A stretch of DNA of 64,000 nt, taken from Actinomadura rifamycini DSM 43936. GTDB lineage: Bacteria > Actinomycetota > Actinomycetes > Streptosporangiales > Streptosporangiaceae. This document shows positions 1,360 to 25,533 of the stretch, piece by piece. A model generated the notes under the pieces. The model was not told the DNA's origin and did not search any database. It worked only from the letters and a program-made list of their open reading frames with translations. The position numbers and the translations under genes are program-made. Each line of letters starts with the position of its first letter. Position 1 is the stretch's first letter. The stretch covers positions 248,001-312,000 of the forward strand of contig NZ_AULB01000009.1 of assembly GCF_000425065.1 (NCBI RefSeq), written 5' to 3'.

Positions 1360-1391
1360 ATGCTGGGCGGCGGGCCTCGACGCCCGGTCGA
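1360..1391 (-). promoter_or_regulatory. SARP-type promoter of the flavin hydroxylase at 1-1352
   Basis: Read on the minus strand, heptamers TCGACCG and TCGAGGC start 11 bp apart. Exactly 8 bp later comes a -10-like CAGCAT, and 7 nt after that the ATG. The 11-bp heptamer repeat 8 bp from the -10 box is the known binding layout of SARP activators such as DnrI and ActII-ORF4. Assignment to a SARP is inference because no regulator is in the window. Confidence 0.7.
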
Positions 1392-1413
1392 GGAACGATC
1401 GGCTCCGCCGTTC

Positions 1414-1445
1414 TCGACCGATCCTCGACCGCCCCGTGCGAGGAT
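1414..1445 (+). promoter_or_regulatory. SARP-type promoter of the small membrane protein gene
   Basis: Two copies of TCGACCG start at 1414 and 1425 (11 bp apart). Eight bp after the second is GAGGAT (1440-1445). The predicted transcript has a leader of about 26 nt that carries the GAGGAG Shine-Dalgarno used by the gene at 1479. Confidence 0.65.
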
Positions 1446-1478: not shown

Positions 1479-1913
1479 ATGCGCGAGGCGGTACGCCTGT
1501 TCCCGTGGAAGATGTCCGCCCTGTGCGCGGCGGCCGTCACCGTGGGATGGCTGGTGCTGTCGCTGTCCGGCGGGGACTTCCGGGGGATCCTCGTGGCGAG
1601 CCCGCTCTGCATCGGGATCATGGTGTTCTTCCTGCTCGGCGGGCTGGTGATGGTGCTCCGCGAGGACGGCGGGAACACCGCCGCCCAGGACACGGTCCGC
1701 CGGCTCGCGCCCGTCCTCGCCATCGTCCCGGCGCTGCTGATCGCCGTGCTGGTGTTCGCCGCGCGCCGCGCGTGCGCGCTCGCCTGGGGGATGGACGAGA
1801 CCGCCGCGGGCTCCGCCGTGGACGGCGCGGCGCGCGGCGCGATCGGCTACGTCGTCCTCGTCGGGTCGGCGCTCGCCGCCCGGTACGACGCCCGCAAGAA
1901 GGCCCGCGGCTGA
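1479..1913 (+). CDS. Small integral membrane protein of unknown function
   Basis: A 144-residue protein with three clear hydrophobic segments (about 14-32, 36-58 and 75-93) and a weaker one near 115-131. The hydrophilic loop between the second and third segments contains REDGGN, and the tail is basic. I do not recognise a family. The ATG at 1479 was chosen because GAGGAG sits 8 nt upstream; the reading frame is open much further upstream but lacks a supported start. It is divergent from the flavin hydroxylase and shares the SARP-type control region, so a role in the polyketide pathway, perhaps export or membrane support, is possible but unproven. Confidence 0.7.
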   Translation: MREAVRLFPWKMSALCAAAVTVGWLVLSLSGGDFRGILVASPLCIGIMVFFLLGGLVMVLREDGGNTAAQDTVRRLAPVLAIVPALLIAVLVFAARRACALAWGMDETAAGSAVDGAARGAIGYVVLVGSALAARYDARKKARG

Positions 1914-2950: not shown

Positions 2951-2982
2951 TCGACCGGGTCTCGATCCGCCGTTCCTAGCGT
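2951..2982 (+). promoter_or_regulatory. SARP-type leaderless promoter of the 2990 operon
   Basis: TCGACCG (2951) and TCGATCC (2962) are 11 bp apart. Eight bp further is TAGCGT (2977-2982), and the ATG follows after 7 nt at 2990 with no Shine-Dalgarno. It would drive at least the flavoprotein, BNR-repeat protein, metallo-hydrolase and two glycosyltransferase genes up to 9253. Confidence 0.7.
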
Positions 2983-2989
2983 CCCGGGC

Positions 2990-4549
2990 ATGACCGACGC
3001 AGCGACCGCCGTGCTCATCGTGGGCGCGGGCCCCGCGGGCCTGACCGCCGCCCTGGAACTGACCCGGCGCGGGGTGCCGTGCCGCGTGGTGGACCGGACG
3101 CCCCGGCCGGCCGCCGCGACCGGCTGCTACATGCTGTGGCCCCGCACCCTGGGCGTCCTGCACCGGGCGGGCGCGCCGGTCGGCGAGCTGGCGCGGTCCG
3201 CCGTGACCCTGCGCCGCAAGGTGTTCCACCTCGGCGGGGAGTCCTTCGCGCACTCCATGGCCGACGAGGACGGCCGCTGGCCGCTGCCGCTGACCCTGCC
3301 GCAGCCGGTCACCGAGGACGTCCTGACCCGGGCGCTCGCCGCGCGCGGCGTCCCGGTGGAGCGCCCGGTGCTCGCCGCGTCCGTCCGCCAGGACGCGGAC
3401 GGCGCCGACGTCGAGCTCCGGCGCCCCGGCGGCGTCGAGCGGGTCCGCGTCCGGTGGGTCGTGCTCGCGCAGGGCGCGGCGGACGACGGGCTGCGCACCG
3501 CCCTCGGCTTCGGCTGGTCGGGCGAGGCGGTCCCCGGCGTCCGCATGTTCCACCTGGACGTCGACCTCGGCGGCGTCCTCCCGCTGCCGCCCGAGGAGGA
3601 GCACATCTTCCTCGCCGACCACCGCAACATCGGGTTCGTCCCGCTGCCGGACGGCCGCCACCGCCTCTTCACCATGGAGCCCGACCCCGACCCCGCCGAC
3701 TGGTCGGCGCCGGACTGGTCCGCGCTGGCCGACACGGTCCGCGCGGTCACCGGGATGACCGGCGATCCCCGGTACACGGGGCCGGTCTGGCGGTCCCGTC
3801 CCGCGCGCGGCCTCGCCGGGCGGTTCCGCTCCGGCCGCTGCTTCGTCGTCGGCGAGACCGCCAAGACCGTCCCCATGCCCGTGCACGGGTTCAACGGCGG
3901 CGTGCAGGACGCCCACGACCTCGCCTGGAAGCTCGCCGACGTCGAACGCGGCGTCACCGGCGAGGCGGTGCTCGACTCCTACGACCACGAGCGCCGCGCC
4001 GTCGCCCGCGCCACCATCGAGCACGCGTCCCGCATCCTCGCCTACGGCACCCACCCGGACGCCGAGGCGCTGCACGGCCCCCGCGTCCGCACCGCCACCC
4101 ACGACGTCCGCACCCAGCCGCCCGTCCGCTACCCGGCGGGGGAGCTGTGCCGCGACGCCGCCGACCTGCCCGGCCCCGCCGCCGGGGAGCGGCTCCCGGA
4201 CCCGCCCGTGCGCGGCCCGGACGGCGCCGGGGCGCCGCTGTCGGAGACGCTCGGCGCCGACTGGGCGCTCGTCGCGCTCACCGGGCTCGCCGGCCTGGAC
4301 GGCCCCGGCACCGACACCGTCCGGGTGCGCGCCCTCGCCGACGCCTACCCGGAGCTGCGGACCTGGCTGCTGACCCCCGGCGAGCCCCGCCCCGGCGAGA
4401 CCGCCGACCCGGACGGCGCCCTGCACCGCGCCGTCGACGCGGACGAACCCCGGCTGTACGTCGTCCGCCCGGACGGCCACATCGGGTTCCGCGGCCCGCT
4501 GCACGACCTGACCGCGCTGCGCGGCTACCTCGGCCGCGTCTTCGCCTGA
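2990..4549 (+). CDS. Divergent class A flavoprotein monooxygenase
   Basis: A 519-residue flavoprotein. The N-terminal FAD motif GAGPAG (12-17) and the RTP segment after the second strand are intact. The later fingerprints are changed: the usual DG motif reads AQGAADDGLR (160-169), the RAR/NPRT segment reads CYMLWPRT, and the GDAAH motif is GETAK (288-292). A C-terminal thioredoxin-like domain is present from about residue 400. Length and order match polyketide hydroxylases, so a tailoring oxygenase or Baeyer-Villiger-like role is possible. The altered NADPH/FAD motifs make an unusual reaction likely, though this is inference. First gene of a five-gene operon. Confidence 0.82.
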   Translation: MTDAATAVLIVGAGPAGLTAALELTRRGVPCRVVDRTPRPAAATGCYMLWPRTLGVLHRAGAPVGELARSAVTLRRKVFHLGGESFAHSMADEDGRWPLPLTLPQPVTEDVLTRALAARGVPVERPVLAASVRQDADGADVELRRPGGVERVRVRWVVLAQGAADDGLRTALGFGWSGEAVPGVRMFHLDVDLGGVLPLPPEEEHIFLADHRNIGFVPLPDGRHRLFTMEPDPDPADWSAPDWSALADTVRAVTGMTGDPRYTGPVWRSRPARGLAGRFRSGRCFVVGETAKTVPMPVHGFNGGVQDAHDLAWKLADVERGVTGEAVLDSYDHERRAVARATIEHASRILAYGTHPDAEALHGPRVRTATHDVRTQPPVRYPAGELCRDAADLPGPAAGERLPDPPVRGPDGAGAPLSETLGADWALVALTGLAGLDGPGTDTVRVRALADAYPELRTWLLTPGEPRPGETADPDGALHRAVDADEPRLYVVRPDGHIGFRGPLHDLTALRGYLGRVFA

Positions 4550-4588: not shown

Positions 4589-6076
4589 GTGTCCCGAACC
4601 CGATCCCGCACCGGCCGCGCCGGTGCGGCCGCCACCGTCGCCGCCGCGCTGGCCGGGGCGCTCGTCGCCGCGCCGCCCGCGGCGGCCGCCGGCCCCGGGG
4701 GGTCGCCCGAGCGGCGCCTCGACGGGCCGAGCCCGTTCGCCGACTGCACCGCCGACGCGTCCCCCGGCGACACCTTCACCCTGCACGCCGAATCGGAGTC
4801 GCACCTCGCCGTCGACCCGCGCCGCCCGTGGCGGCGGGCCGTCGCCTACCGGCAGGACCTGTGGGCGAGCGGCAGCTCGCGCGGCATCGTCGTCGCGTCC
4901 ACCGCCGACGGCGGCCGCACCTGGCGGCGCACCGTGCTGCCCGGCGTCGGCGCCTGCGCGGGCGGCGCCAACGGCCGCGCCACCAACCCGTGGGTGGCGT
5001 TCGGGCCGAGCGGCGTCCTGTACGCGACGGTCAGCGCCACCGGGCAGGACGCGACGGGCGTCGTCGTCAGCCGGTCGTGGAACGGCGGCCGCACCTGGAG
5101 CGACCCCGTCACCCTCACGAACGACCCGCGCCCCCGCTACTTCAACGACAAGTCGACCGTCACCGTCGACCCCCGCGACCCGCGCCGCGTGTACGCCGTG
5201 TGGAACCGCCGGGACGTCGACGGCGGCACCCACGACCTGCTGCTGGCCGTCAGCGACGACGGCGGGCGCACGTTCGCCGAGCCGCGCTCGATCCACCGTC
5301 CGCAGACGCCCGGCGCGGGCACCTTCGGCGGGCAGGTCGTGGTGCTGCCCGACGGCCGCCTCGTCACGGTGTTCCTGGAGAACGAGCACCCGGTGGGCGG
5401 CGGCCCGCACCCCGGCGACCTGCCCGAACGGGTCCGGGTGCTGCGCTCGGCCGACCGCGGCGCGACGTGGAGCGCCCCCGTCACCGTCGCCGACGTCGAG
5501 ATGAACACGCCGATCCTGCCCGACCACCCGCCGTACGTCCCGATGATGGCGCCCGGCTCCGTCCCCGACATCGCCGTGGACGGCCGCACCGGCAAGGTCT
5601 ACGTCGTGTGGGGCGAGGCGGGGCTGTCGCGGAGCCTCAGCGCGGTCGGCCTGTCCGCGTCCGAGGACGGCGGCGCCACCTGGACGCCGCGCCGCAAGGC
5701 GAACCTCACGCCGGACTCGGACGAGTACGGCTCCGGGCAGGCGTTCCTGCCGCAGGTCGACGTCGCGGCGGACGGCACCGTCGGGGTCAGCTACTACGAC
5801 TTCCGCGGCAACACTCCCGAGGCGGGCGCGCCCGCCGCGGTGTGGCTCGCGACCTGCCGCGCCGGCGACTGCGCCGCCGCCGGGAAGTGGACCGAACGGC
5901 GGCTCGCCGCACCGGCCGACCTGGCCGCGGCGCCGTACTGGTTCGGCGGCCCCTACATCGGCACCTACACCGGGCTCGCGCACGCCGGACGCGGGTTCGT
6001 CGCCGCGCTCGTCACCGGCGGCGCCCCCGGCGACCCCACCCGCGTCGTCGTGACCCGGCCGCACCGGGCCCGCTGA
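4589..6076 (+). CDS. Secreted BNR/Asp-box repeat protein (sialidase-like beta-propeller)
   Basis: A 495-residue protein with a Sec signal peptide (basic start, hydrophobic core, cleavage probably after the Ala run near residue 35). Five Asp-box motifs of the form SxDGGxTW occur near residues 104, 163, 222, 287 and 358, the hallmark of six-bladed sialidase-type propellers. I could not place the full sialidase catalytic set (Arg triad, Tyr/Glu pair), so enzymatic sialidase activity is doubtful. The GTG at 4589 has AGGAG upstream and follows the flavoprotein by 39 nt in the same operon. A secreted propeller inside a polyketide operon is unusual; binding or hydrolysis of a glycosylated product is a guess. 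Confidence 0.8.
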   Translation: MSRTRSRTGRAGAAATVAAALAGALVAAPPAAAAGPGGSPERRLDGPSPFADCTADASPGDTFTLHAESESHLAVDPRRPWRRAVAYRQDLWASGSSRGIVVASTADGGRTWRRTVLPGVGACAGGANGRATNPWVAFGPSGVLYATVSATGQDATGVVVSRSWNGGRTWSDPVTLTNDPRPRYFNDKSTVTVDPRDPRRVYAVWNRRDVDGGTHDLLLAVSDDGGRTFAEPRSIHRPQTPGAGTFGGQVVVLPDGRLVTVFLENEHPVGGGPHPGDLPERVRVLRSADRGATWSAPVTVADVEMNTPILPDHPPYVPMMAPGSVPDIAVDGRTGKVYVVWGEAGLSRSLSAVGLSASEDGGATWTPRRKANLTPDSDEYGSGQAFLPQVDVAADGTVGVSYYDFRGNTPEAGAPAAVWLATCRAGDCAAAGKWTERRLAAPADLAAAPYWFGGPYIGTYTGLAHAGRGFVAALVTGGAPGDPTRVVVTRPHRAR

Positions 6077-6126
6077 CACCAGCACCGCACCTCGTCCGCG
6101 AGGAGCCGAATCCGCGAGGAGCCGAC

Positions 6127-6840
6127 ATGCGCCTGTACCTGTTTCGCACCGGGACGCTCGTGGCCACCGGGGCCCCGATCGCCTGCTACCTGATCCAGAC
6201 CGACGACGGCGTGAACGTCCTCGTCGACACCGGCTACCCCCGGGCGCGCGCCGGCCGGTACGCGCCCGGGTCCCCGGAGCCCATCCGCGTCGAGGCCGGC
6301 GAGGACGTCGTGTCCCGGCTGGCCGAGGTCGGGCTCGCGCCGCAGGACGTCCACATGGTCGTCTGCTCGCACCTGGACCCCGACCACGCCGGCAACCACG
6401 ACGCGTTCCCGGACGCCGAGTTCGTCATCCAGCGCGAGCACCACGAGCTGGCGCTGTCGGGGACGGTGCCCAGGCTGGAGATGACGCGCTCCGCCTGGGA
6501 CCGCCCGGAGCTGAAGTACCGCCGCGTCCAGGGCGACACCGAGCTGCTGGCCGGGATCGACCTGCTGGAGACGTCCGGGCACATCGCCGGTCACCAGTCG
6601 CTGCTGGTGCGGCTGCCCGACACCGGGCCCGTGCTGCTCGCGGTGGACGCGATCCCCGAGCGGGCCGCCCGCAACGCCGAGACCCGGCCGATGTACCCGT
6701 TCGACGTGGACGAGCCCGCGACCCGCGCCGCCACCGCGCGGCTGATGGACCTGGCCGAGGCGACGGGCGCGCTCGTGGTGCACGGGCACTGCGCCGAGCA
6801 GTGGCCCGAGCTGACGACCGGGCCCGCCTACTACTCCTAG
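6127..6840 (+). CDS. Metallo-beta-lactamase-fold hydrolase, N-acyl homoserine lactonase-like
   Basis: A 237-residue MBL-fold protein of the AttM/AiiA-like size class. The metal motif is HLDPDH at 82-87, so the second position is Asp where lactonases normally have His. Further likely ligands are His152 or His156, Asp174 and His219 or His221. Known relatives open lactone rings, and other MBL proteins in type II clusters (ActIV) cyclise or release polyketides, so either function is possible. It sits 50 nt after the BNR protein and 12 nt before a glycosyltransferase, which argues for a pathway role. Start ATG 6127. Confidence 0.8.
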   Translation: MRLYLFRTGTLVATGAPIACYLIQTDDGVNVLVDTGYPRARAGRYAPGSPEPIRVEAGEDVVSRLAEVGLAPQDVHMVVCSHLDPDHAGNHDAFPDAEFVIQREHHELALSGTVPRLEMTRSAWDRPELKYRRVQGDTELLAGIDLLETSGHIAGHQSLLVRLPDTGPVLLAVDAIPERAARNAETRPMYPFDVDEPATRAATARLMDLAEATGALVVHGHCAEQWPELTTGPAYYS

Positions 6841-6852
6841 AGGGGACGACAG

Positions 6853-8052
6853 ATGCGCGTACTGTTCGTGACGGTCCCGTGGCCGACGAACTTCCATGTC
6901 CTGGCGCCGCTCGCGTGGGCGCTGCGCGGCGCGGGCCACGAGGTGCGGATCGCGTCCGGTCCCGGGCTGACCGACGCCGTGGGCCGGTCCGGGCACCAGA
7001 TCGTCGAGTGCGGGCCGGACGGCGACGTCGCGCCGCTGTTCGCCGAGCGGGTCGGGCCGATGTACGACATCGACTGGAGCGACCGCGACCCGGCGGCGGC
7101 CGAGGCGGACGCGGAGGCGGTCGTCGGCGTCTTCGCCGGCATCGCCGACCGGATGGCGGACGACCTCGTGGCGTTCGCCCGGTCGTGGCGCCCCGACCTC
7201 GTCGTGCACGAGCCGACGGCCGCGGCGGGCGCGCTGGTCGCGGCGGTGCTCGGCGTCCCGTCCGTCCGGCACCTGTGGGGGCCGGACGTCACCGCGCCCG
7301 TCGAGCACCTGCACCGGCGGCTGCTCACCCCGCTGTGGGAGCGGTTCGGGCTGACCGAGGTGGACCTCGGCGGGGAGCTGACGCTCGACCCGGGCCCGGC
7401 GTCGCTGCGGGAGGCGGGCACGCCCGACCACCGGCCCGTCCGGTACGTCCCGTTCAACGGCCCCGGCGAGATCCCGCGCTGGCTCGACGCCCCGGCCGCC
7501 CGGCCCCGGGTGCTCGTCACCTGGGGCACCGCGATGTCCCGGATGGGCCGCCCCGACGCGTTCTGGCTGCGCGAGGCCGTCGCTTCGGTCGCGGCGGAGC
7601 TCGCCGGGGACGACCTGGAGGTGCTCGTCGCGCGCGCCGCGGACCAGGCGGAGCTGCTCGGCCCGGTCCCGGACGGGGTGCGGGAGCTGGAGCAGGTGCC
7701 GCTGCACGCGATCCTGCCGACCTGCGCGGCGGTCGTCCACCACGGCGGCAGCGGGAGCACGCTGGGCGCGGTCGCTGCGGGCGTGCCGCAGCTCGTCGTC
7801 GCGCTCTCGCCCGACCAGGTGCGCAACGCGCTGCGGATCGAGGCGAGCGGCGCCGGGCTGATGCTGCTGCCGCGCGACGGCGGCGCCGCGGCCGTCCGCG
7901 CCGGGACCGGGCCGCTGGTACGGCGGCTGCTGGCCGACCCGTCGTTCGGCGCGGCGGCGGCGCGGCTCCGCGCCGAGCTGGCCGCGCAGCCCGCCCCCTG
8001 GGAGATCGTCGCCGACCTGGAGCGGCTCGCGCAGCGGGCCGTGCCCGCCTGA
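6853..8052 (+). CDS. GT1-family (GT-B) glycosyltransferase 1
   Basis: A 399-residue antibiotic-type glycosyltransferase. The N-terminal acceptor domain starts with FVTVPWPTNFHVLAPLAWAL, and a TWGT segment opens the C-terminal donor domain. The nucleotide-sugar motif HHGGSGS is at 296-302, followed by GVPQLVVALSPDQVRNA. Relatives such as EryCIII, DesVII and AknS attach deoxysugars and often need a P450-like helper, which is not seen here. It is the most divergent of the four paralogues in this window (ELTLDPGP where the others have DLTVDP), so it may act at a different attachment point. It is 12 nt downstream of the metallo-hydrolase. Confidence 0.9.
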   Translation: MRVLFVTVPWPTNFHVLAPLAWALRGAGHEVRIASGPGLTDAVGRSGHQIVECGPDGDVAPLFAERVGPMYDIDWSDRDPAAAEADAEAVVGVFAGIADRMADDLVAFARSWRPDLVVHEPTAAAGALVAAVLGVPSVRHLWGPDVTAPVEHLHRRLLTPLWERFGLTEVDLGGELTLDPGPASLREAGTPDHRPVRYVPFNGPGEIPRWLDAPAARPRVLVTWGTAMSRMGRPDAFWLREAVASVAAELAGDDLEVLVARAADQAELLGPVPDGVRELEQVPLHAILPTCAAVVHHGGSGSTLGAVAAGVPQLVVALSPDQVRNALRIEASGAGLMLLPRDGGAAAVRAGTGPLVRRLLADPSFGAAAARLRAELAAQPAPWEIVADLERLAQRAVPA

Positions 8053-8065
8053 GGAGGACCCCGCC

Positions 8066-9253
8066 ATGCGCATCCTGTTCACCAGCTGGGCCTGGACCAC
8101 GCACTTCTACCCGATGGTCCCGCTCGCCTGGGCCGCCCGGGTCGCCGGGCACGACGTCCGCTTCGCGGCGCCGTCCGACCTGGTGCCGTCGATCACGGCG
8201 TCCGGGCTGCCCGCCGTCACCGCGGGGGAGGACTTCGACATCGTCGGGGACTTCCAGGAGCGGATCGTCACCGTGATGGACTACGAGAACGACCACGCGC
8301 GCGGCGAGGCCGAACTGGCCGAGCGGCACGCCGCGCGCAGCCGCGCCGTCATGGAGCACTACACCGCGATCGCCGCCGCGATGACGCCCGGCCTGCTCGA
8401 CTACGCCCGCGCGTGGCGCCCGGACGCGGTCGTGTACGACCCGCTCGCGTGGGCGGGCGTCCTGGTGGCGGACGACCTGGGCGTCCCGGCGGTGCGGAGC
8501 CTGTTCGGGCCCGACCTGTCGGCCGCGATCCGGCCCGAGCACACCGACGTCCTGGACCCGCTGCTGGAGTCGCTCGGGCTGGACCGGCCGGCGTCCACGC
8601 TCGGCGACCTGACCGTCGACCCGTGCCCGCCGTACGTCCAGATCGACGCGCCGGTGCGGCGGCAGCACATCCGGTTCGTGCCCTACAACGCGCTGCCGGT
8701 CGTCCCGCCGGCGGCGCACGAGCCCGGCCGGTCCGGGCGCCCCCGGGTCTGCCTGACCTGGGGGACCACCACCGACCGGATGGTGGGGGAGACGGCGTTC
8801 CTGCCGCCGAACGTGCTCGAGGCGATGCTGTCGCTGGACGCCGAGCTGGTCATCGCGATCGCGGCCCGCCAGGAGCACCTGCTGCCGGACCTGCCGCCGG
8901 AGGTGACGATCGCGAAGTCCGTCCCGCTGGACGTGCTGCTGCCCACCTGCGACCTGGTGGTGCAGCGCGGCGGCTCCGGGACGAGCCACACCGCCGCCCT
9001 GTACGGGGTGCCGCAGCTCATCCTCCCGCTGATGCCCGACACGCTCCTCACGGCGCGCACGTTCTGCTCGTCCGGCGCGGGCGTTTTCCTCCGCCCGGAC
9101 GAAGCCGACGCGGAAACAATTCGGGAAAACGCGGCGCGCATTCTTGAGCCCGATTCGTCGTTCCGCCGGCAGGCCCGCGCGCTCGCCGACGACATGGAGC
9201 GGCTGCCGCGCATGCCGGACGCGGTGCGGGCGCTGGAGGAACTGGCGGCCTGA
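8066..9253 (+). CDS. GT1-family (GT-B) glycosyltransferase 2
   Basis: A 395-residue paralogue of the other three glycosyltransferases. It carries the family start ILFTSWAWTTHFYPMVPLAW, LGDLTVDPCPP in the linker region, and TWGTTT at the start of the donor domain. In the donor-site motif it reads QRGGSGT (300-306), with Gln-Arg replacing the usual His-Gln or His-His, so the conserved histidine near the diphosphate is missing. GAGGAGG precedes the ATG by a few nucleotides. It is the last gene of the 2990 operon and is followed by a strong hairpin. The sugar donor cannot be read from sequence. Confidence 0.9.
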   Translation: MRILFTSWAWTTHFYPMVPLAWAARVAGHDVRFAAPSDLVPSITASGLPAVTAGEDFDIVGDFQERIVTVMDYENDHARGEAELAERHAARSRAVMEHYTAIAAAMTPGLLDYARAWRPDAVVYDPLAWAGVLVADDLGVPAVRSLFGPDLSAAIRPEHTDVLDPLLESLGLDRPASTLGDLTVDPCPPYVQIDAPVRRQHIRFVPYNALPVVPPAAHEPGRSGRPRVCLTWGTTTDRMVGETAFLPPNVLEAMLSLDAELVIAIAARQEHLLPDLPPEVTIAKSVPLDVLLPTCDLVVQRGGSGTSHTAALYGVPQLILPLMPDTLLTARTFCSSGAGVFLRPDEADAETIRENAARILEPDSSFRRQARALADDMERLPRMPDAVRALEELAA

Positions 9254-9265
9254 CGCGAGAGCGCT

Positions 9266-9295
9266 CGTCCCGCCCGGCCGCGGCCGGGCGGGACG
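9266..9295. terminator. GC-rich hairpin between convergent genes
   Basis: A perfect 13-bp inverted repeat (arms begin CGTCCCGCC) with a 4-nt loop lies between the convergent glycosyltransferase 2 and SDR genes. It has no T-run; it probably acts as a bidirectional terminator. Confidence 0.65.
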
Positions 9296-9315
9296 ACGTC
9301 ATGCGCGGGGTGATG

Positions 9316-10122
9316 TCATGCGCGGGGTTCGGCGAGCGCCCGCGCGGTACGGCGTCCCCAGGTGCTGTAGCGGCGCCGCCGGACGAGGGCGGGCGCGAGC
9401 CGGGCGAGCCGGGCGCGGGCCCGGTAGTCGAGCCCGGGAACGTGGACCGGGCGCCCGGCGGCCACCGCCGCCAGCCCCTCCCGGACCACGTCGTCGGCCT
9501 CCAGCACCCGGCCGATCCGCTTGCCCCGGTGCCCGGAGGCGTCGTGGACGCCAGTGCGGACGGCGCCCGGGCACAGCGCCGTCACGTGCACGCCCAGCCA
9601 GGTCACCTCGCCGTGCACCGACTCGCTGAACGCGACGAGGAACGCCTTGCTGGCCCCGTAGGCCGCGCCGCCGGGCGCGGGCGCGAACGCGCCGGTCGAG
9701 GCCACGTTCAGCACCCCGCCGCCGCCGCGCGCCGCCATCGGGCCGACCGCGGCGCGGGTCAGCCGCACCGCCGCCGTCACGTTCAGCGCGACGAGCGCGT
9801 CCAGCGCCGCCGGGTCCTGGTGCGGGAGCGGGCCGATGCCGCCGACGATCCCGGCGCAGTTCACCAGCAGGTCGACCGGGCGTGCGGGGTCGCCCAGCCG
9901 GGCCTCGACGGCGGCCAGCCCGGACGGGTCCGCCAGATCGGCCGGCAGGGGCTCGGCGGTGACGCCGTGCGCGGCGCAGAGCCCGTCCGCCAGCTCCGTC
10001 AGCGCGTCCGCGCGCCGCGCCACCAGGACCGGCGAGGTGCCGCCGGCGGCGAGCGCGCGGGCGAAGGCGGCGCCCAGCCCGCCCGACGCCCCGGTGATGA
10101 GTGCGGTCCTGTAGCGAGTCAC
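9316..10122 (-). CDS. Short-chain dehydrogenase/reductase (DltE-like)
   Basis: A 268-residue classical SDR: nucleotide motif TGASGGLG near the N-terminus, NCAG in the core, catalytic Ser in NVASTG and YGASK as the Tyr/Lys pair. The basic C-terminal tail (RARARLARLAPALVRRRRY) resembles membrane-associated SDRs of the DltE group. The GTG at 10122 has no Shine-Dalgarno and lies 7 nt after a TTATGT -10 box in a SARP-type promoter, which supports both this start and membership of the cluster. It may be a polyketide or deoxysugar ketoreductase; the substrate is not determined. Confidence 0.82.
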   Translation of the reverse strand: MTRYRTALITGASGGLGAAFARALAAGGTSPVLVARRADALTELADGLCAAHGVTAEPLPADLADPSGLAAVEARLGDPARPVDLLVNCAGIVGGIGPLPHQDPAALDALVALNVTAAVRLTRAAVGPMAARGGGGVLNVASTGAFAPAPGGAAYGASKAFLVAFSESVHGEVTWLGVHVTALCPGAVRTGVHDASGHRGKRIGRVLEADDVVREGLAAVAAGRPVHVPGLDYRARARLARLAPALVRRRRYSTWGRRTARALAEPRA

Positions 10123-10129
10123 CCGAGAA

Positions 10130-10161
10130 ACATAACCCCGGGAAATTCGAATCGTCCAGGA
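10130..10161 (-). promoter_or_regulatory. SARP-type leaderless promoter of the SDR gene
   Basis: Minus-strand heptamers TCCTGGA and TCGAATT start 11 bp apart. After 8 bp comes TTATGT, and after 7 nt the GTG start of the SDR. The spacing is identical to that at 1360-1391 and 2951-2982. Confidence 0.65.
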
Positions 10162-10181
10162 ATGCTTTTCTCCAATTGTCC

Positions 10182-10213
10182 TCTAGCCGTTTTCGAGCGG
10201 TGCGCGGAACGCT
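10182..10213 (+). promoter_or_regulatory. SARP-type promoter of the DUF1772 operon
   Basis: TCTAGCC (10182) and TCGAGCG (10193) are 11 bp apart. Eight bp later is AACGCT (10208-10213). A GTG at 10222 lies 8 nt beyond the -10 box and could be a leaderless start for the next gene. Confidence 0.65.
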
Positions 10214-10269
10214 GATCCGCGGTGCCGCCCGCAGAAGGCCGGGCGCCCTTTCCGCACGGGACGGTGACG

Positions 10270-10731
10270 ATGGTCGAGATTCTGCTGCCGGTGGCGCTGC
10301 TCGCCGGCGGCCTCGCCGCGGGAGCGCTGGTGCTGTCCGCGCTCGGCGGGGCGCCGATGCTGCTCGCGCTGCCCGCCGACAGCTACCTGCCGGTCCACAA
10401 GTTCCTCGTCACGCGGTTCGACCCGTTCATGCCGATCTGCCTGCTGGCGGCGCTGGTCTGCGACGCGCTGCTGGCGGCGGTCGGGGACGGCGGCGCGACC
10501 CGCGCCATGGCCGGGGCGGCCGTGCTCCTGTACGCCTCCGTGGTGGTCGTGTCGGTGACCAAGAACGTGCCGATCAACCGGTGGGTGGCGGGCCTGGACC
10601 CGGCCGCGCTGCCGGACGACTTCGACAGCATGGAACCCCGCGTCCGCTGGCGGAACTGGAACCTCGTCCGCACGGTCCTGGCGGTCCTCGGCCTCGCGGT
10701 GAACACGGCGCTCGTCGGGGTGCTGCTGTGA
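10270..10731 (+). CDS. DUF1772 (anthrone-oxygenase-like) membrane protein
   Basis: A 153-residue membrane protein with four hydrophobic segments and the family signature KNVPINRW followed by a conserved WxxWNLVRT stretch. DUF1772 members occur in aromatic polyketide clusters, where some act as cofactor-independent anthrone oxygenases. The ATG at 10270 starts directly at the first membrane segment and has a weak GGGACGG upstream. A GTG at 10222 in the same frame sits at the leaderless position of the SARP-type promoter and would add 16 residues, so the start is uncertain. It overlaps the next gene by 4 nt. Confidence 0.78.
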   Translation: MVEILLPVALLAGGLAAGALVLSALGGAPMLLALPADSYLPVHKFLVTRFDPFMPICLLAALVCDALLAAVGDGGATRAMAGAAVLLYASVVVVSVTKNVPINRWVAGLDPAALPDDFDSMEPRVRWRNWNLVRTVLAVLGLAVNTALVGVLL

Positions 10732-11075
10732 GCCGGGCGCGGGTGCTGGTCCACCACCGGGTCCCCGACGGCCGCCCGGACGCGGTCGAGACCGCCTACC
10801 GGTCCGCCGTCCGCGGCCTCGCGGGCGTCCCCGGGCTGCTGGGCACCGAGCTGCTGGACGTCCCGGGGGACCCCGCGGCGCGCGTCCTGCTCATGGACTG
10901 GACGAGCGCCGAGCACTACCGGGCCTGGGAGGAGCGGCACCGCGCGGCGGGGCACCCGTCGCCGCTGCGCCCGTTCCAGGACCGCGACCGCCCCGGCGGC
11001 CACCACCACCTGTTCGTCCTGGCGGCGGAGTACCCCGCCGCGCTGCCCGAAGACAAGGAGATCCCCATCCCATGA
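10728..11075 (+). CDS. Antibiotic biosynthesis monooxygenase (ABM)-fold protein 1
   Basis: A 115-residue dimeric alpha-beta barrel protein. It begins ARVLVHHRVPDGR, contains the family's GLLGTELL strand and ends with RPGGHHHLFVLA. ABM enzymes such as TcmH and ActVA-Orf6 oxidise anthrones or quinols without a cofactor. The GTG at 10728 overlaps the DUF1772 stop, and its own stop overlaps the next ATG, so the three genes are translationally coupled. It is clearly paralogous to the ABM protein at 18374-18787 (shared GLLGxEL core). Confidence 0.8.
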   Translation: MSRARVLVHHRVPDGRPDAVETAYRSAVRGLAGVPGLLGTELLDVPGDPAARVLLMDWTSAEHYRAWEERHRAAGHPSPLRPFQDRDRPGGHHHLFVLAAEYPAALPEDKEIPIP

Positions 11076-12091
11076 CCCGGACCTGGTTGACCACGGCGCG
11101 GGCGGCGGCACTGGCCGTGCTGCTCGCGGTCGCGGCGGTCGGAGCGGCGGCGCCCGCGCAGGCGGCGCCCGCCAAACCGTCCCGCCTCGGCCCGGCGCCC
11201 GTCCTCAACGTGCACGTGACGCCGGACGGCTTCGTCGTGCCCGGCCCGAACCCGCGGCCCGGCGGCCCGGTCACCTTCCGGGTGACCGCCGAGGGCGCCC
11301 ACGGCTACTGGTGGAACGTCTACAAGCTGCTGGACGGCGCGACGATCGACCAGTTCGTCACCTGGAACGCGGAGCGCGGCTCCGACGACCCCGAGGTGGC
11401 GCGCGCCGCGATGAAGAACCTCTACCGCTACGTCGAGTGGTCGGGCGGCGCGAAGGTGTACCCCGGCAAGCCGCTGGAGCTGACCCAGACGCTGACTCCT
11501 GGAACGTACTACTTCGGCTCGCTGGCCATCCCCGGCCCCCAGGGCGCCGCCCCCGAACCGGCCGCCGCGGACGGCGGCGTCTCCGCGCGGGTCGCGGCGC
11601 CCGCCCCGGACGCCCTGCCGGCCGCGAAGGCCGCCGTGCGGGCGCAGGAGCCGTCGGTCTTCGGCTGGCTCGACATCACCGACGAGTACCGGCCGGCCCG
11701 GCTGCCGCGGGTCGACGGCCTCGTCTACATGACCGAAATGGGCGGCCGCGACGTCATGATCGCCCCGCGCCGGCTGCCCGCGCGGGGCCGGGTGTGGGTG
11801 ATCAACCACACCCGGCAGCCGCAGGAGACCGTGTTCATGGACCTGCGGGACGGCGCGACGCACCGCGACGTCCGCGCGTACTTCGACGCCCAGCTGGACG
11901 GCCGCCCGCTGCCGCCGCGCCCGTTCGGCGACTCCATCGGCGGGATGCTCGCGCTGTCCCCGGACAAGCAGATCATCATGGGGTACGAGATGCCCGCGGA
12001 CACCTACGGGCTGTTCTCCTGGCTGCGCGACTCCGACACCCTCCTGGACGCCGCCGCGACCGGCATGACGAGCGTGATCGACCTGCGCTGA
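11072..12091 (+). CDS. Secreted protein of unknown function with an apparent internal duplication
   Basis: A 339-residue protein with a clear Sec signal peptide (about residues 1-32, ending AQAAPA). The mature part seems to contain two related halves: one has KLLDGATIDQFVTWN and later LTPGTYYFGS, the other has MDLRDGATHRDVRAYF and later MPADTYGLFS. The order (sheet-like strand, DGAT segment, long helix, PxTYxxF strand) repeats, which suggests tandem cupredoxin-like or immunoglobulin-like domains, but no copper ligands are obvious. It is coupled by an ATGA overlap to the ABM gene, so it is made together with pathway oxygenases. Function unknown. Confidence 0.7.
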   Translation: MTRTWLTTARAAALAVLLAVAAVGAAAPAQAAPAKPSRLGPAPVLNVHVTPDGFVVPGPNPRPGGPVTFRVTAEGAHGYWWNVYKLLDGATIDQFVTWNAERGSDDPEVARAAMKNLYRYVEWSGGAKVYPGKPLELTQTLTPGTYYFGSLAIPGPQGAAPEPAAADGGVSARVAAPAPDALPAAKAAVRAQEPSVFGWLDITDEYRPARLPRVDGLVYMTEMGGRDVMIAPRRLPARGRVWVINHTRQPQETVFMDLRDGATHRDVRAYFDAQLDGRPLPPRPFGDSIGGMLALSPDKQIIMGYEMPADTYGLFSWLRDSDTLLDAAATGMTSVIDLR

Positions 12092-12161: not shown

Positions 12162-13283
12162 TCAGACCAGGGCGAGGAGGCGGTCCACCGCCGTCGCCGG
12201 GGCGGGCTGCGCCGCGTTCTCCGCCCGCAGCGCCTCCGCGGCCGCCGCGTACCCGGGGCCGTCCAGCACCGCCGCCGCGGCGGCCCGGACCACGGCGGGC
12301 GACAGCTCCGCGAACGCGACGCCGCGCGCGGCGCCCGCCGCCTCGAGCCGCTCGGTGTTGAGCGGCTGGTCCCCGATCGACGGGATCGTCACCTGCGGGA
12401 CGCCCGCCGCGACCGCCGCCAGCGCCGTCCCCGGCCCGCCCTGGTGCACCACCAGCGAGCAGCCCGGCAGCAGCAGGCTCAGCGGCATGGACTCCACGAC
12501 CCGCACGCCGTCCGGGACCGGCTCCACCAGCTCCCGCTGCCCCTTCGCGATCGCCAGCACGACCTCCGCGTCCAGGTCCGCGACGCCCGCGAGGACGGCC
12601 CGCAGCGGGTCGAGGTGGCCGGCCGTCTTCGCGAAGGTCGTCCCCCACGTGACGCACACCCGGCGCCGCGCCGGCGGCTCCGCGAGCCACCCGGGGACCG
12701 TCTCCGGGCCGTTGTACGGGACGTGCCGGACGGCGTGCGCGTTCCCGGCGCCCGGTATCTGCAGGGTCGGCGGGCACGGGTCGACGGTGAGGTCGCCGTG
12801 CGGGCGCACGTCGGTGAGGCCCAGCCGCGCCCACACCGGGTCGAGCAGCTCCCGCTCGTCGGGGTGCCGCGCGTACGTGTAGTCCACCCCGTACAGGTGG
12901 CGGACGGCCGGGACGCCGAGCCGCGCCGCCGCGATGAGCCCGGCGTACGCGCGCGGTTCGTACACCACCGCGTCGCAGCGCCAGTCCTGTGCGAACCGGG
13001 TGACGCCGTCGGCCAGCCGCTCGCCGACCGTCGCGAACATCGTCACCGCGCGGGCCGACCGCGCCGCCGGGGCGTCGTCGACCGACGCGCCGCGCCAGAA
13101 CACGCCCGCGTCGACGTCCTCGCCGATCACCACCGGATGCAGCCCGGTGCCCGCGACGTACTCCGCGAAGGACGGCTGGCACGCCACCCGGACCTCGTGC
13201 CCGGCGGCGCGCAGCGCCCAGCCGAGCGGGACCATCGGCAGGTAGTGCGACGCGGTCGCCCACGTCGTCATCAGCACCCGCAT
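12162..13283 (-). CDS. GT1-family (GT-B) glycosyltransferase 3
   Basis: A 373-residue glycosyltransferase, slightly shorter than its paralogues. It begins VLMTTWATASHYLPMVPLGW, has HGDLTVDPCPP in the linker, TWGTTF at the donor domain, and HQGGPGT at about 280-286. The canonical histidine is present. It lies 7 nt downstream of a flavin hydroxylase gene and is expected to share that SARP-type promoter. It probably attaches one of the cluster's deoxysugars to the aglycone or a sugar chain; which sugar is unknown. Confidence 0.9.
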   Translation of the reverse strand: MRVLMTTWATASHYLPMVPLGWALRAAGHEVRVACQPSFAEYVAGTGLHPVVIGEDVDAGVFWRGASVDDAPAARSARAVTMFATVGERLADGVTRFAQDWRCDAVVYEPRAYAGLIAAARLGVPAVRHLYGVDYTYARHPDERELLDPVWARLGLTDVRPHGDLTVDPCPPTLQIPGAGNAHAVRHVPYNGPETVPGWLAEPPARRRVCVTWGTTFAKTAGHLDPLRAVLAGVADLDAEVVLAIAKGQRELVEPVPDGVRVVESMPLSLLLPGCSLVVHQGGPGTALAAVAAGVPQVTIPSIGDQPLNTERLEAAGAARGVAFAELSPAVVRAAAAAVLDGPGYAAAAEALRAENAAQPAPATAVDRLLALV

Positions 13284-15483: not shown

Positions 15484-16685
15484 ACCCGGGCGGGCCGCTG
15501 CGGGTCCTGTTCACCACCTGGGCGTGGCCGTCGCACTACTTCCCGATGGTGCCGCTGGCGTGGGCGTTCCGCGCCGCCGGGCACGAGGTGCTGGTCGCGA
15601 GCCAGCCCGCGCTCGCCGGGACGATCGCCCGGTCCGGGCACCCGGCCGTGGCGGTGGGGTCCGACCTCGACATCGTCGGCTACCACCGCACCGAGCACGC
15701 CGGGCTGCGGGTCACCCGCGACGCCGAGCCGCCGGCGGCCTGGAACGCGGCGAAGCGCACCCGCGTCCAGCAGGGGTTCGCGAAGTTCGCCGAGATCGCC
15801 GACCTGATGGCCGACGACCTGCTGGACGTGGCGCGCCGGTGGCGCCCGCACCTCGTGGTGCACGACCCGCTCACCTACGCGGGCCCGCTGGTCGCCGGGC
15901 TCGTCGGCGTGCCCGCCGTCCGGTCGCTGTTCGGGCCGGACTTCAACGTGGACATCGCCGACCTCGAGTCCGCCGCGGCGCAGCCGCTCGCCGACCGGTT
16001 CGGCGTGGACCGCATCGACCCGCTCGGCGACCTCACCGTCGACCCGGTGCCGGGCGCGCTGCAGTTCCCCGCGCCGCTGCGCCGCCTGCACGTCCGGTAC
16101 GTCCCGTACAGCGGGCAGCCGAACATGCCGGGCTGGGCGCTCGACCCGCCGGACCGCCCCCGCGTCCTGGTGAGCTGGGGCACCACCACCGCCAAGTTCA
16201 GCGCGGAGCACGCGGCCCGGCTGCCCGAGGTGGTCGCCGCGCTCGCCGGGCCGGACGCCGAGGTGGTGTTCGCGGTCACCCCCGACCAGCGGGCCCTCGT
16301 CCCGGACGTCCCGGACGGGGTCCGGCTCGTGGAGTCGGCGCCGCTGGACGCGCTGCTGCCGGGCTGCTCCGCCGTCGTCCACCAGGGCGGCGCCGGGACG
16401 ACGCTGACGGCGGCGCTGCACGGCGTCCCGCAGCTCGCGGTCGTGCAGACCCCCGACCAGGTGGTCAACGCGATCCCGCTGGAGAAGTCCGGGGCGGGCG
16501 CGTTCCTGGTCCCGGACGAGACGACCCCGGACGCGCTGCGCGACGGCGCCGCCCGGCTGCGCACCGATCCGTCGGCGGCCGCCGCGGCGCGGGGGCTGGC
16601 CGCCGAGATGCGGGGCCGGCCGTCCCCGGCCGCCGCCGTCCGGACGCTGGAACGGCTCGCGCACGGCGAAGGAGAGACGACGTGA
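15480..16685 (+). CDS. GT1-family (GT-B) glycosyltransferase 4
   Basis: A 401-residue glycosyltransferase starting at GTG 15480, which overlaps the BCCP stop. It has VLFTTWAWPSHYFPMVPLAW at the acceptor domain, LGDLTVDPVPG in the linker, SWGTTT opening the donor domain, and HQGGAGT at 301-307 with the canonical histidine. It is closest in layout to glycosyltransferases 2 and 3. Because its stop overlaps the start of the C-4 aminotransferase gene, it is the best candidate to transfer the amino sugar, although co-transcription alone does not prove this. Confidence 0.9.
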   Translation: MNPGGPLRVLFTTWAWPSHYFPMVPLAWAFRAAGHEVLVASQPALAGTIARSGHPAVAVGSDLDIVGYHRTEHAGLRVTRDAEPPAAWNAAKRTRVQQGFAKFAEIADLMADDLLDVARRWRPHLVVHDPLTYAGPLVAGLVGVPAVRSLFGPDFNVDIADLESAAAQPLADRFGVDRIDPLGDLTVDPVPGALQFPAPLRRLHVRYVPYSGQPNMPGWALDPPDRPRVLVSWGTTTAKFSAEHAARLPEVVAALAGPDAEVVFAVTPDQRALVPDVPDGVRLVESAPLDALLPGCSAVVHQGGAGTTLTAALHGVPQLAVVQTPDQVVNAIPLEKSGAGAFLVPDETTPDALRDGAARLRTDPSAAAAARGLAAEMRGRPSPAAAVRTLERLAHGEGETT

Positions 16686-17878
16686 AGCGCACCCTCTCGG
16701 ACCTCGCGGTCTTCGGCGGGGACCCCCTGTTCGGCGAGACCCTGCACACGGGGCGGCCGAACCTCGGCGACACCGCGGCGTTCCTGGACCGGGTCCGCGG
16801 CGTCCTGGACCGCCGGTGGCTCACCAACAACGGCCCGCTGGTGCTGGAGTTCGAGCGCCGGGTGGCGGCGCTGGCCGGGGTCGAGCACTGCGTCGCGATG
16901 TGCAACGCGACGATCGGCCTCCAGGTCGCCGTCCGGGCGCTGGGACTGACGGGCGAGGTCATCGTGCCGTCGTTCACCTACCCGGCGACGCCGCACGTCC
17001 TCGGCTGGACGGGCGCGACGCCGGTGCTGTGCGACGTCGACCCGGTCACCGGGAACCTGGACCCGGCCGCCGTGGAGCGCGCCGTCACGCCGCGGACGAC
17101 CGGCATCCTGGCCGTCCACGTGTGGGGGCGGCCGTGCTTCCCGCGCGAGCTGGAGGAGGTCGCGGCCCGGCACGGGCTGGCGCTGCTGTTCGACGCCGCG
17201 CACGCGTTCGGCGTCACCGCGGACGGCGTCCCGGTGGGCGGCTTCGGAGCCGCGGAGGTGTTCAGCTTCCACGCCACCAAGTTCGTCAACAGCGTCGAAG
17301 GCGGCGCGCTCGTGACGAACGACGCCGACCTGGCCGACCGGGCCCGGTCGCTGCGCAACTTCGGGTTCGCGGGCGAGGACGTCGCGGCGGTCGGCACCAA
17401 CGCCAAGATGAACGAGCTGTGCGCCGCGATGGGCCTCACCTCGCTGGACTCGCTCGACGGGCTGCTGCGCACCAACAGGGCCAACCACGCGGCGTACCGG
17501 GAGGGGCTGCGGGACGTGCCCGGGATGACCCTGCACGAGTACCCCGCCGACGTCCGGGCCAACCACCAGTTCGTCGTCGCGGAGGTGGACGAGCGGGCCT
17601 GCGTCGGCCGGGACGCCCTGATGCGGGTCCTCGAGGCGGAGAACGTCGTCACCCGGGCGCACTTCTCCCCGGGCTGCCACCGGATGGCGCCCTACAACGC
17701 GACCGCGGACCCGGCCGGCTTCCCGCACACCGAGGCGCTCGCGGCCCGGGTCATCACCCTGCCGACCGGCAACGCGGTCGGCGCGCCCGAGATCGGCGCG
17801 CTGTGCGGGCTGCTGGACTTCGTCGCCCGCAACGGCGCCGACGTCGCCCGCCGCATGGAGGAGCCCGTCCCGGCCTGA
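16682..17878 (+). CDS. NDP-4-keto-6-deoxyhexose C-4 aminotransferase (DegT/DnrJ/EryC1/StrS family)
   Basis: A 398-residue PLP enzyme. The start region (LHTGRPNLGDTAAFLDRV then RWLTNNGPLVLEFE) resembles DesI/VioA/SpnR-type sugar C-4 transaminases. The PLP lysine is Lys200 in SFHATKFVNSVEGG. It would convert a 4-keto-6-deoxyhexose nucleotide to the 4-amino sugar using glutamate. Together with the 3-dehydrase (20856) and N-methyltransferase (22277) it suggests a forosamine-like 4-dimethylamino sugar. The GTG at 16682 is preceded by GGAGAGA and overlaps the glycosyltransferase stop. C-4 rather than C-3 specificity is inferred from the N-terminal similarity. Confidence 0.85.
   Translation: MKRTLSDLAVFGGDPLFGETLHTGRPNLGDTAAFLDRVRGVLDRRWLTNNGPLVLEFERRVAALAGVEHCVAMCNATIGLQVAVRALGLTGEVIVPSFTYPATPHVLGWTGATPVLCDVDPVTGNLDPAAVERAVTPRTTGILAVHVWGRPCFPRELEEVAARHGLALLFDAAHAFGVTADGVPVGGFGAAEVFSFHATKFVNSVEGGALVTNDADLADRARSLRNFGFAGEDVAAVGTNAKMNELCAAMGLTSLDSLDGLLRTNRANHAAYREGLRDVPGMTLHEYPADVRANHQFVVAEVDERACVGRDALMRVLEAENVVTRAHFSPGCHRMAPYNATADPAGFPHTEALAARVITLPTGNAVGAPEIGALCGLLDFVARNGADVARRMEEPVPA

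Positions 17879-20855: not shown

Positions 20856-20859
<4 letters not shown>
20830..20859 (+). CDS. Putative nine-residue leaderless leader peptide coupled to the 3-dehydrase
   Basis: The ATG at 20830 lies at the leaderless position of the SARP-type promoter and encodes MAEAGGTTR. Its TGA overlaps the ATG of the 3-dehydrase at 20856. The GGAGG used by the downstream gene lies inside this ORF, so translation of the mini-ORF could govern access to it. Whether it is translated is untested. Confidence 0.4.
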
Positions 20860-22175
<1,316 letters not shown>

Positions 22176-22276: not shown

Positions 22277-23002
22277 CTACTTGCGCACCCCCACGAACAG
22301 GCCGCACCCGAACGTCTCGTCCGGCTCCTGGAACTCGGCCTCGCAGCCCGCCGCCGTGAACGCGTCCAGGTACTGGTCGCGGGTGAACAGCGAGAGCACC
22401 TGCGTCTCGGTGAAGTGGCGCATGCCGTCCGGCCCGGCGAGCACCACGTGGATCTCCATGTTGACGTTGCAGTCGGTGCGCTCGTCCCGGGTGGTGCGCG
22501 ACACCCGGGAGATCGTGAGGTCGCCGTCCCGGACGACGCTGGTGGACACGTACCCCTCCAGGAAGTCCTCCGGGAAGTACCAGGGCTCCACCGCGACGAC
22601 GCCGCCGTGCTCGACGTGCCGCGCGATGCAGTCGAGCGCCTGGCCGAGCTGCTCGACCGTCCGCAGGTAGGCGATGGACGCGAACATCGAGATCGCCGCG
22701 TCGAACCGGCGGCCGAGGTCGAAGTCGCACATGTTGCCCGAGTGCAGCGGCAGGCCGTCGCCCAGCTTGCGGCGCGCCACCCCGAGCATCTGCCCCGTGT
22801 ACTCCAGGCCCTCGACCTCGGCGAACTCCTTGCGGAGGTGCACCAGGTGCTCCCCGGTGCCGCACGCCACGTCGAGCAGCGACCGCGCGTCCGGGCACCG
22901 CCGGCGCATCCGCTCGGAGACCGTCGCGGCCTCGTTCTCGTAGTTCTTGCCCCGGCCCCGGTAGATGAGGTCGTACACCTCGGCGAGATTCTGTTGGAAC
23001 AT
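22277..23002 (-). CDS. Aminosugar N-methyltransferase (DesVI/TylM1/SpnS type)
   Basis: A 241-residue SAM-dependent methyltransferase. It has the TylM1-like start AEVYDLIYRGRGKNYENEA, motif I LLDVACGTGEHL, ISMFASIAYL, VVAVEPWYFPEDFLEGYV and LFTRDQYLDAFTAAG, all features of NDP-aminohexose N,N-dimethyltransferases. It would methylate the 4-amino group installed by the aminotransferase. The frame is open further upstream, but the ATG at 23002 is 6 nt from a -10 box of a SARP-type promoter and fits the family start. It is convergent with the 3-dehydrase and is the last gene clearly belonging to the cluster. Confidence 0.88.
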   Translation of the reverse strand: MFQQNLAEVYDLIYRGRGKNYENEAATVSERMRRRCPDARSLLDVACGTGEHLVHLRKEFAEVEGLEYTGQMLGVARRKLGDGLPLHSGNMCDFDLGRRFDAAISMFASIAYLRTVEQLGQALDCIARHVEHGGVVAVEPWYFPEDFLEGYVSTSVVRDGDLTISRVSRTTRDERTDCNVNMEIHVVLAGPDGMRHFTETQVLSLFTRDQYLDAFTAAGCEAEFQEPDETFGCGLFVGVRK

Positions 23003-24804: not shown

Positions 24805-25533
24805 TCATCCCGCGGCGGCGACCCGCTTGTACCGCCATGCCGCGATCGCGGCGAAAACGACCGTCCATGCCGCGAGCCCGCCGATCGCGGTCAGGTTGAC
24901 CGGCTCGCCGTCCACGACGTCCCACCCGAGCGACCCCGCGAAGTACGCCGGGGACGCCTCGGCGAACGGCCGCAGCCCCTCGGGGAACAGCGAGGTGGGC
25001 CACCACAGGCCGCCGAGGATCGCGAGCGCGAAGTAGAGGCCGACGGTGAGGCCCTGCGCGGCCTGCCCGGCGGCGAGGTAGCCGATCGTGACGCCGAGCA
25101 CCGCGAACGGCGTCGCGGCCAGCCACACCAGCACGATGATCTCGAGCCACTGCAGGGCGTCCAGCCGGACCTCGCCGACGAACGCGCCCGCCAGCAGCAC
25201 CAGGCCGAGCGCCAGCGGCACCACGAACAGCCCGGACAGCGTCTTGGCGATGACGTAGGCGCGGGTGGTCAGCGGCGTGATCGCGAGCTGCCGCGTCCAG
25301 CCGCTGTGCCGCTCGGTCGCGATGCTGCCCGCGGCGAGCAGCGCCATGCCGAGCGACCCGTAGGTCGCCATCGACACCATGACCGCCGCCGGGTCGGCGT
25401 TCGGGTCGTCGGCGCCGATGTCGAGGACCTTCACCAGCATCAGGTACATCCCGACCGGGAACGCGGCCAGGTACATCAGGAACTGCGGGCTGCGCAGCAG
25501 CCGGATCACTTCCAAACGCAGCAGGGCGCTCAC
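24805..25533 (-). CDS. ABC-2 type transporter permease
   Basis: A 242-residue permease with six hydrophobic segments: a first helix after LRLEVIRLLRSPQFLMYL, then ATERHSGWTRQLAITPLT between helices 2 and 3, a typical ABC-2 exporter motif, and LGGLWWPTSLFPEGLR before the last helix. The GTG at 25533 overlaps the ATPase stop. With the ATPase it would form an exporter of drugs or lipids. Self-resistance to the neighbouring polyketide is possible, but the operon lacks the SARP-type promoter of the cluster. Confidence 0.88.
   Translation of the reverse strand: MSALLRLEVIRLLRSPQFLMYLAAFPVGMYLMLVKVLDIGADDPNADPAAVMVSMATYGSLGMALLAAGSIATERHSGWTRQLAITPLTTRAYVIAKTLSGLFVVPLALGLVLLAGAFVGEVRLDALQWLEIIVLVWLAATPFAVLGVTIGYLAAGQAAQGLTVGLYFALAILGGLWWPTSLFPEGLRPFAEASPAYFAGSLGWDVVDGEPVNLTAIGGLAAWTVVFAAIAAWRYKRVAAAG

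Follow-up and report, generated by a model that had tools for sequence, protein, structure and literature searches.

The window analysed here, a stretch of 64,000 nucleotides from Actinomadura rifamycini DSM 43936 (C6:248001-312000 of genome G000; G, C and L numbers are our handles for genomes, contigs and loci), continues a type II polyketide cluster that starts upstream of it. Its genes, taken from a home-made caller, include two that encode secreted-looking proteins, an Asp-box (BNR) beta-propeller protein at 4589 and a protein without a Pfam family at 11072. A sequence-only reading of this DNA had placed both in a set of five, together with a small membrane protein (1479), a DUF1772 membrane protein (10270) and a metallo-beta-lactamase (MBL) hydrolase (6127), proposing that the five could finish, hold or detoxify the cluster's product outside the cell. 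We conclude with high confidence that the BNR protein and the 11072 protein form a co-inherited, cluster-bound pair, and we propose more cautiously what that pair might do.

Across 341 genomes of the family, relatives of the 11072 protein at E <= 1e-10 occur in 23, and in 13 of these, G000 included, they lie in type II polyketide clusters (five of the other 10 genomes were read at 20 kb). Because an 11072 relative was the criterion by which the 13 were selected, only the BNR protein, the laccase and the other genes found in them are independent observations. BNR matches at E <= 1e-60 are present in 29 of the 341 genomes, and the best match falls within the same cluster in all 13 (12/12 relatives of the window cluster), in the case of G269 on a separate small contig bearing cluster genes. 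No genome outside the 13 has a BNR match better than 1e-67, and the copies inspected outside clusters (G267 C16, G231 C34 twice, and G189) stand in other surroundings. In a tree of 44 rows a branch with support 100/99 sets apart the members of the 11072 family that come from the 13 clusters, and in a BNR tree of 23 rows the BNR proteins of these clusters form one clade (support 92/97, recovered in 88% of 200 bootstrap trees). Across 12 clusters, pairwise distances within the 11072 and BNR families correlate with those of the ketosynthase that we named KSa (r 0.84 and 0.87, respectively; 0/5000 permutations). Gene order around the two genes varies between clusters, yet both are kept.

KSa itself is common, with matches at E <= 1e-200 in 77 of the 341 genomes, 65 of them outside the 13 (G225 falls below this threshold). 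Ten clusters outside the 13, drawn from the better KSa matches at 77-80% KSa identity, served as controls, their stretches shortened by contig ends in G307, G305, G223 and G263. Neither protein of the pair was found in any of the ten control clusters; nine of the control genomes have no match anywhere to 11072 (E <= 1e-10) or BNR (E <= 1e-60), and the tenth, G290, has one distant 11072 match about 166 kb from its KSa. A similar ketosynthase is not in itself enough to predict the pair. To judge by titles and the starts of abstracts, none of the papers listed in searches of the open literature reports the pairing of these proteins in type II polyketide clusters.

The pair is tied to one cluster branch that always has glycosyltransferases. 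Within 40 kb of KSa a glycosyltransferase was found in 13/13 clusters with the pair and in four of the ten controls (G026, G304, G305 and G290), and within 20 kb in 10/13 against 1/10; that of G269 was counted on its 18-kb contig, whose best KSa match is weak, and the control count stood at 1/10 on shorter stretches (28.8-40 kb) before their extension raised it to 4/10. Laccases (PF07731) are a second frequent neighbour: matches occur in 12 of the 13 genomes, and nine of the 13 clusters have at least one laccase no farther than 40 kb from the 11072 relative, where 0.49 would be expected (P about 3e-11; the value is approximate, since gene numbers were taken from match counts and the distance was fixed at 40 kb). 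In six of those nine clusters a laccase copy carries a twin-arginine-like start, as recognized by a simple pattern. Actinomadura rupiterrae and Sphaerisporangium fuscum are among the relatives that carry a laccase.

Both proteins begin with signal-like, alanine-rich N-termini, as the sequence-only reading had it in calling them secreted; a home-made export score flags both and, weakly, the MBL protein, but also cytosolic enzymes such as KSa. Export and fold of the pair are predictions. The 11072 protein drew no Pfam match at E 0.001, matches of 11 family members at E up to 1 were at chance level, and none of the 11 matched a Cu-oxidase domain. A structure predicted from the single sequence was useless, with a predicted local distance difference test (pLDDT) score of 41; an AlphaFold2 model built from eight sequences (the window protein and seven relatives from named genomes) had a pLDDT of 80 and a predicted template modelling score (pTM) of 0.76. 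With this model Foldseek returned 300 matches at E <= 0.001 (best E 4.7e-8), laccases and copper nitrite reductases leading, and all 50 of the matches listed are laccases, other multicopper oxidases or copper nitrite reductases. VIA-align placed the second domain (213-339) on small cupredoxins, the best being 4hcf with a middling Z of 7.9, a root-mean-square deviation (rmsd) of 2.1 and 90 aligned residues.

Type 1 copper is bound by a His, a Cys, a second His and a Met. Beyond residue 35 the 11072 protein contains no Cys, and the 11 full-length cluster members share no invariant His or Cys, so that the protein should not hold type 1 copper; by our reading an invariant serine, S316, lies near the expected Cys position. 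We describe its second domain as predicted to be cupredoxin-like without copper ligands, and rejected a copper redox role for the protein on the latter ground. A sequence relation to laccases was rejected as well, a profile comparison with five cluster laccases having found nothing, as was internal duplication in general, the two halves being alike beyond shuffles in 2/11 members (G287 and G215), the window protein not among them.

Some observations concern the 11072 family more widely. The seven named loci found with it belong to Actinomadura (5), Sphaerisporangium (1) and Rhizohabitans (1), and G000 has a distant relative of its own on contig 15. At L078 (G115) and L081 (G097) there are further distant relatives (28-29% identity), each some 5 kb away from genes for modular type I polyketide synthases, an O-methyltransferase gene adjoining the relative at L078; the family may serve other polyketides too. 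At L067, L070, L071 and L074 the relative stands beside a glycosyltransferase and a PIG-L-like deacetylase gene (confirmed by Pfam for L071 alone, recognized by eye in the other three), which hints at an amino sugar.

The BNR protein exceeds both of its family cut-offs, with 48.8 bits against 31.4 for PF13088 (BNR_2) and 29.4 against 27 for PF02012 (BNR). It matches sialidases weakly, and only short stretches of it align to solved sialidases. Within its cluster clade 21 polar or aromatic positions are invariant and also kept in outgroup relatives, and eight further polar residues, R98, N206, E264 and Q389 among them, are invariant in the clade but not in the outgroups. The BNR relative at L151, on a draft contig (G269 C248), contains in-frame stop codons and was called in two pieces.

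The proposed five genes (Table 1) appear to be wired into the cluster by a Streptomyces antibiotic regulatory protein (SARP)-type regulon. The accessible part of PMC6510168 describes SARP targets as heptamers (TCGAGXX) with 4-bp spacers, directly repeated ahead of the promoter. The 89 kb scanned contain 10 exact TCGA-N7-TCGA matches, of which nine lie between genes, where only 5.5% of positions fall; all nine are in the cluster part of the 89 kb. When the intergenic DNA was shuffled 300 times, matches averaged 0.15 and never exceeded 2. The claim that all five genes stand under SARP-type promoters is borne out by exact repeats before 1479 and 2990 and softens at 10270, which has only a one-mismatch site; the same TCTAG variant precedes the 10270 relative in G224. 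In the window, neither the BNR nor the MBL gene is preceded by a repeat, their upstream gaps being 39 and 50 nucleotides; the genes at 4589, 6127, 6853 and 8066 follow 2990 at short gaps, so that BNR and MBL would be read with it and belong to the regulon by operon only. In G224 the BNR gene has its own exact SARP-type site. The 11072 gene is tied in by two 4-nucleotide overlaps, its own with the ABM gene and that of the ABM gene with 10270-10731. As far as sequence can show, then, the regulon holds.

Table 1. Genes and SARP-type repeats of the cluster. Positions count from the first letter of the window, except those marked C6, which are contig positions; bits are given against the family cut-off.
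Feature	Position	Strand	Family match or remark
Ketosynthases, named KSa and KSb by us	C6:238419 and 239732 (upstream of window)		ketosynthase matches
Two regulators	upstream of window		BTAD and Trans_reg_C domains
NDP-hexose 2,3-dehydratase	cluster part upstream of window
P450 and dTDP-glucose dehydratase	cluster part upstream of window
Carboxylase subunits and second anthrone-oxygenase-like gene	cluster part upstream of window		by mutual similarity and by eye
SARP-type repeats upstream of 1479	1377..1428		exact TCGA-N7-TCGA at 1377 and 1414
Small membrane-like protein	1479..1913	+	three membrane-like segments; no family match
SARP-type repeat upstream of 2990	2951..2965		one, exact
FAD monooxygenase, heading a presumed operon that also holds the genes for BNR, MBL and two glycosyltransferases	2990..4549	+	PF01494
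Secreted-looking Asp-box (BNR) beta-propeller protein, 495 residues	4589..6076	+
MBL-fold hydrolase near acyl-homoserine lactone (AHL) lactonases	6127..6840	+	PF00753
Two EryCIII-type glycosyltransferases, same presumed operon as 2990	6853..9253 (starts 6853, 8066)	+	PF21036, PF06722; TIGR04516 below cut-off
SARP-type repeat upstream of 10270	10182..10196		one mismatch (TCTAG..TCGAG)
Anthrone oxygenase-family membrane protein	10270..10731	+	PF08592, 49.6 bits vs 27.3
ABM-family protein	10728..11075	+	PF03992, 32.6 bits vs 23.1; 4-nucleotide overlap with both neighbours
Secreted-looking protein, 339 residues	11072..12091	+	no Pfam family
Glycosyltransferase	12162..13283	-	closest relative present in each of 12 other clusters
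Further glycosyltransferase	start 15480
DesI-like aminotransferase	16682-17878		below its cut-off
RfbH-like enzyme	20856-22175		over its cut-off
Methyltransferase	22277-23002
ABC transporter pair	24805-26426
Biotin-carrier-like protein, acyl carrier protein, polyketide-cyclase protein	in window

The three remaining members of the proposed five are separated from the pair by their distribution. The small membrane protein is indeed membrane-like; its gene falls outside 4589-12091, where it had been counted, and it has a relative in one of the 12 other clusters, that of G224, directly before the BNR gene. The MBL hydrolase does have an MBL fold, and its relatives are patchy (5/12). It scores 128.4 bits against the curated cut-off of 375 for AiiA-type AHL lactonases, whose metal motif is HxHxDH; all six cluster MBL proteins compared read HxDxDH, an Asp replacing the second His, and by eye their other metal positions look kept. 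The DUF1772 membrane protein belongs to what is now the Anthrone_oxy family (PMC11002830, accessible part) and is by family a tailoring enzyme; at least one anthrone oxygenase gene is present in 9/10 control clusters without the pair, which marks it as part of the general chemistry of this ketosynthase group. Neither this family nor that of the MBL protein fits extracytoplasmic maturation. The shared, cluster-bound role proposed for the five is supported by comparison for the BNR and 11072 proteins and fails for the other three, and we rejected the five genes as one unit on their distribution across relatives and controls. Each of the five does belong to a transcription unit that carries a SARP-type site, in one case a mismatched one, but given those counts it is highly improbable that they work together outside the membrane.

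As for the product, the DesI-like aminotransferase, the RfbH-like enzyme and the methyltransferase of the window would together suit the making of a 4-amino tetradeoxy sugar, for example forosamine. Hibarimicin, a glycosylated dimeric polyketide, was weighed as a product class; the literature searched yielded only citations of it. The accessible part of a review of Actinomadura metabolites (PMC10951976) offered no matching product.

We consider it reasonably probable that the pair acts on the product outside the cell; this action and its manner we infer as follows. SARP control would couple production of the two proteins to the pathway, and they would meet the product once it is outside the cytoplasm. 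The 11072 protein, without copper ligands, would most likely carry out no redox chemistry of its own and instead bind or orient the aromatic product, and the propeller would most likely recognize or trim a sugar on it. Where a laccase is encoded nearby the pair would steer its coupling reaction; in the window cluster, which has none, it would hold or finish the product without one. Taken whole, with an exported pair of which the 11072 protein binds or steers the product and the propeller handles its sugar, this account is tentative and falls a little short of an even chance. A number of points weigh against it. Export is read from the N-terminal sequence, and co-occurrence does not demonstrate contact with the product. 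Both proteins also have distant relatives away from clusters of this kind. In G221 and G225 gene calling recovered no more than a fragment of the 11072 relative (225 and 222 residues, respectively), and the match of G225 is weak (E 1.6e-17). Foldseek TM-scores for the 11072 model are low (about 0.16-0.28, rmsd 16-20) because its two domains do not superpose together. GH33 sialidases are marked by a catalytic arginine triad and by an Asp, a Glu and a Tyr at known places, and these residues could not be mapped in the BNR protein from the short sialidase alignments. No PF07731 match was found on contig C6 of G000, and the clusters of G224, G287 and G225 also have no laccase. Finally, glycosylation alone does not predict the pair: 4/10 controls have a glycosyltransferase without it, a result that made us slightly less confident both in the whole account and in the glycosidase alternative below, and slightly more inclined to see the two proteins as mere passengers.

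The same observations can be arranged in other ways. A bolder variant of our proposal is a dirigent-type control in bacteria, in which an exported, copper-dead cupredoxin-like protein and an Asp-box propeller capture glycosylated aromatic polyketides outside the cell and set their oxidative coupling or final maturation, the two proteins being a fixed component of the whole cluster family; we regard this as rather unlikely. The constant presence of glycosyltransferases in the 13 clusters also suits prodrug activation, whereby a protective sugar added inside the cell is removed outside by the BNR protein as a glycosidase, with the 11072 protein helping or secondary. The Asp-box family, the weak sialidase matches and the eight clade-specific invariant polar residues of the BNR protein are consistent with this, and secreted activation is an established strategy according to the accessible part of PMC9854587. 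The protein has no full-length glycosidase match, however, its catalytic residues were not located, four controls have glycosyltransferases without the pair, and the laccase neighbourhood and the constant partner 11072 would be left unexplained, so we judge it unlikely.

The 11072 protein might also (perhaps together with the BNR protein) sequester the finished product outside the cell for self-protection, in the manner of enediyne apoproteins. Its predicted beta-rich fold without redox ligands, its secreted look and its SARP-type site would suit such a role, for which the accessible part of PMC9854587, naming sequestration and apoproteins, gives precedent; but the ABC transporter pair could account for efflux, and we judge sequestration distinctly unlikely. 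Both proteins could, lastly, be general envelope proteins caught by SARP operons and without a role in the product. Members of both families elsewhere, including the contig 15 relative in G000, point that way, whereas a BNR protein in 12/12 relatives chosen by 11072 against 0/10 controls, the congruent distances and the retention of both proteins despite varying gene order point away from it, and we consider such hitch-hiking improbable.

The usual picture of a type II polyketide pathway has it finish within the cell, where the compound is tailored, glycosylated and then exported. A secreted-looking pair that is constant in one cluster family suggests that an extracellular stage has been overlooked. 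Should the pair prove to steer coupling, bacteria would offer a tool for making biaryls selectively; should it instead activate or hold the product, it would serve self-protection.

Several known systems resemble the pair in part, and we compare them here as the accessible parts of the cited papers describe them. Among Asp-box propellers, GH33 sialidases included, the BNR protein has the Asp boxes and the secreted look in common, with alignment confined to short stretches; the 11072 protein is alike in predicted fold to two-domain laccases and cupredoxins, without their copper ligands and without a detectable sequence relation to the five cluster laccases. The fungal laccase-fasciclin coupling system PigF2/PigG2 (PMC13207265) has, within an aromatic polyketide cluster, a laccase gene and another that encodes an accessory protein which is not a laccase, an arrangement that 9/13 of our clusters share; the candidates here come from actinobacteria and are an Asp-box propeller and a cupredoxin-like protein that has no copper ligands, the window cluster has no laccase, and a Pfam scan found no fasciclin domain in either the 4589 or the 11072 protein. 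In viriditoxin biosynthesis (VdtB/VdtD), VdtD has an enzyme fold without the catalytic residue and is proposed to steer laccase coupling (PMC6600887). VdtD is a serine-hydrolase relative whose effect was shown by disruption, and NapU, an oxidoreductase and an example of the secreted activators in temporal-spatial shielding, has shown activity (PMC9854587), whereas the 11072 protein lacks copper ligands and the role of the pair is proposed from genes and sequence. With VdtD the pair would nevertheless share a noncatalytic protein of enzyme fold as the proposed steering partner, and with NapU a cluster-encoded, secreted-looking protein that would finish the product outside the cell.

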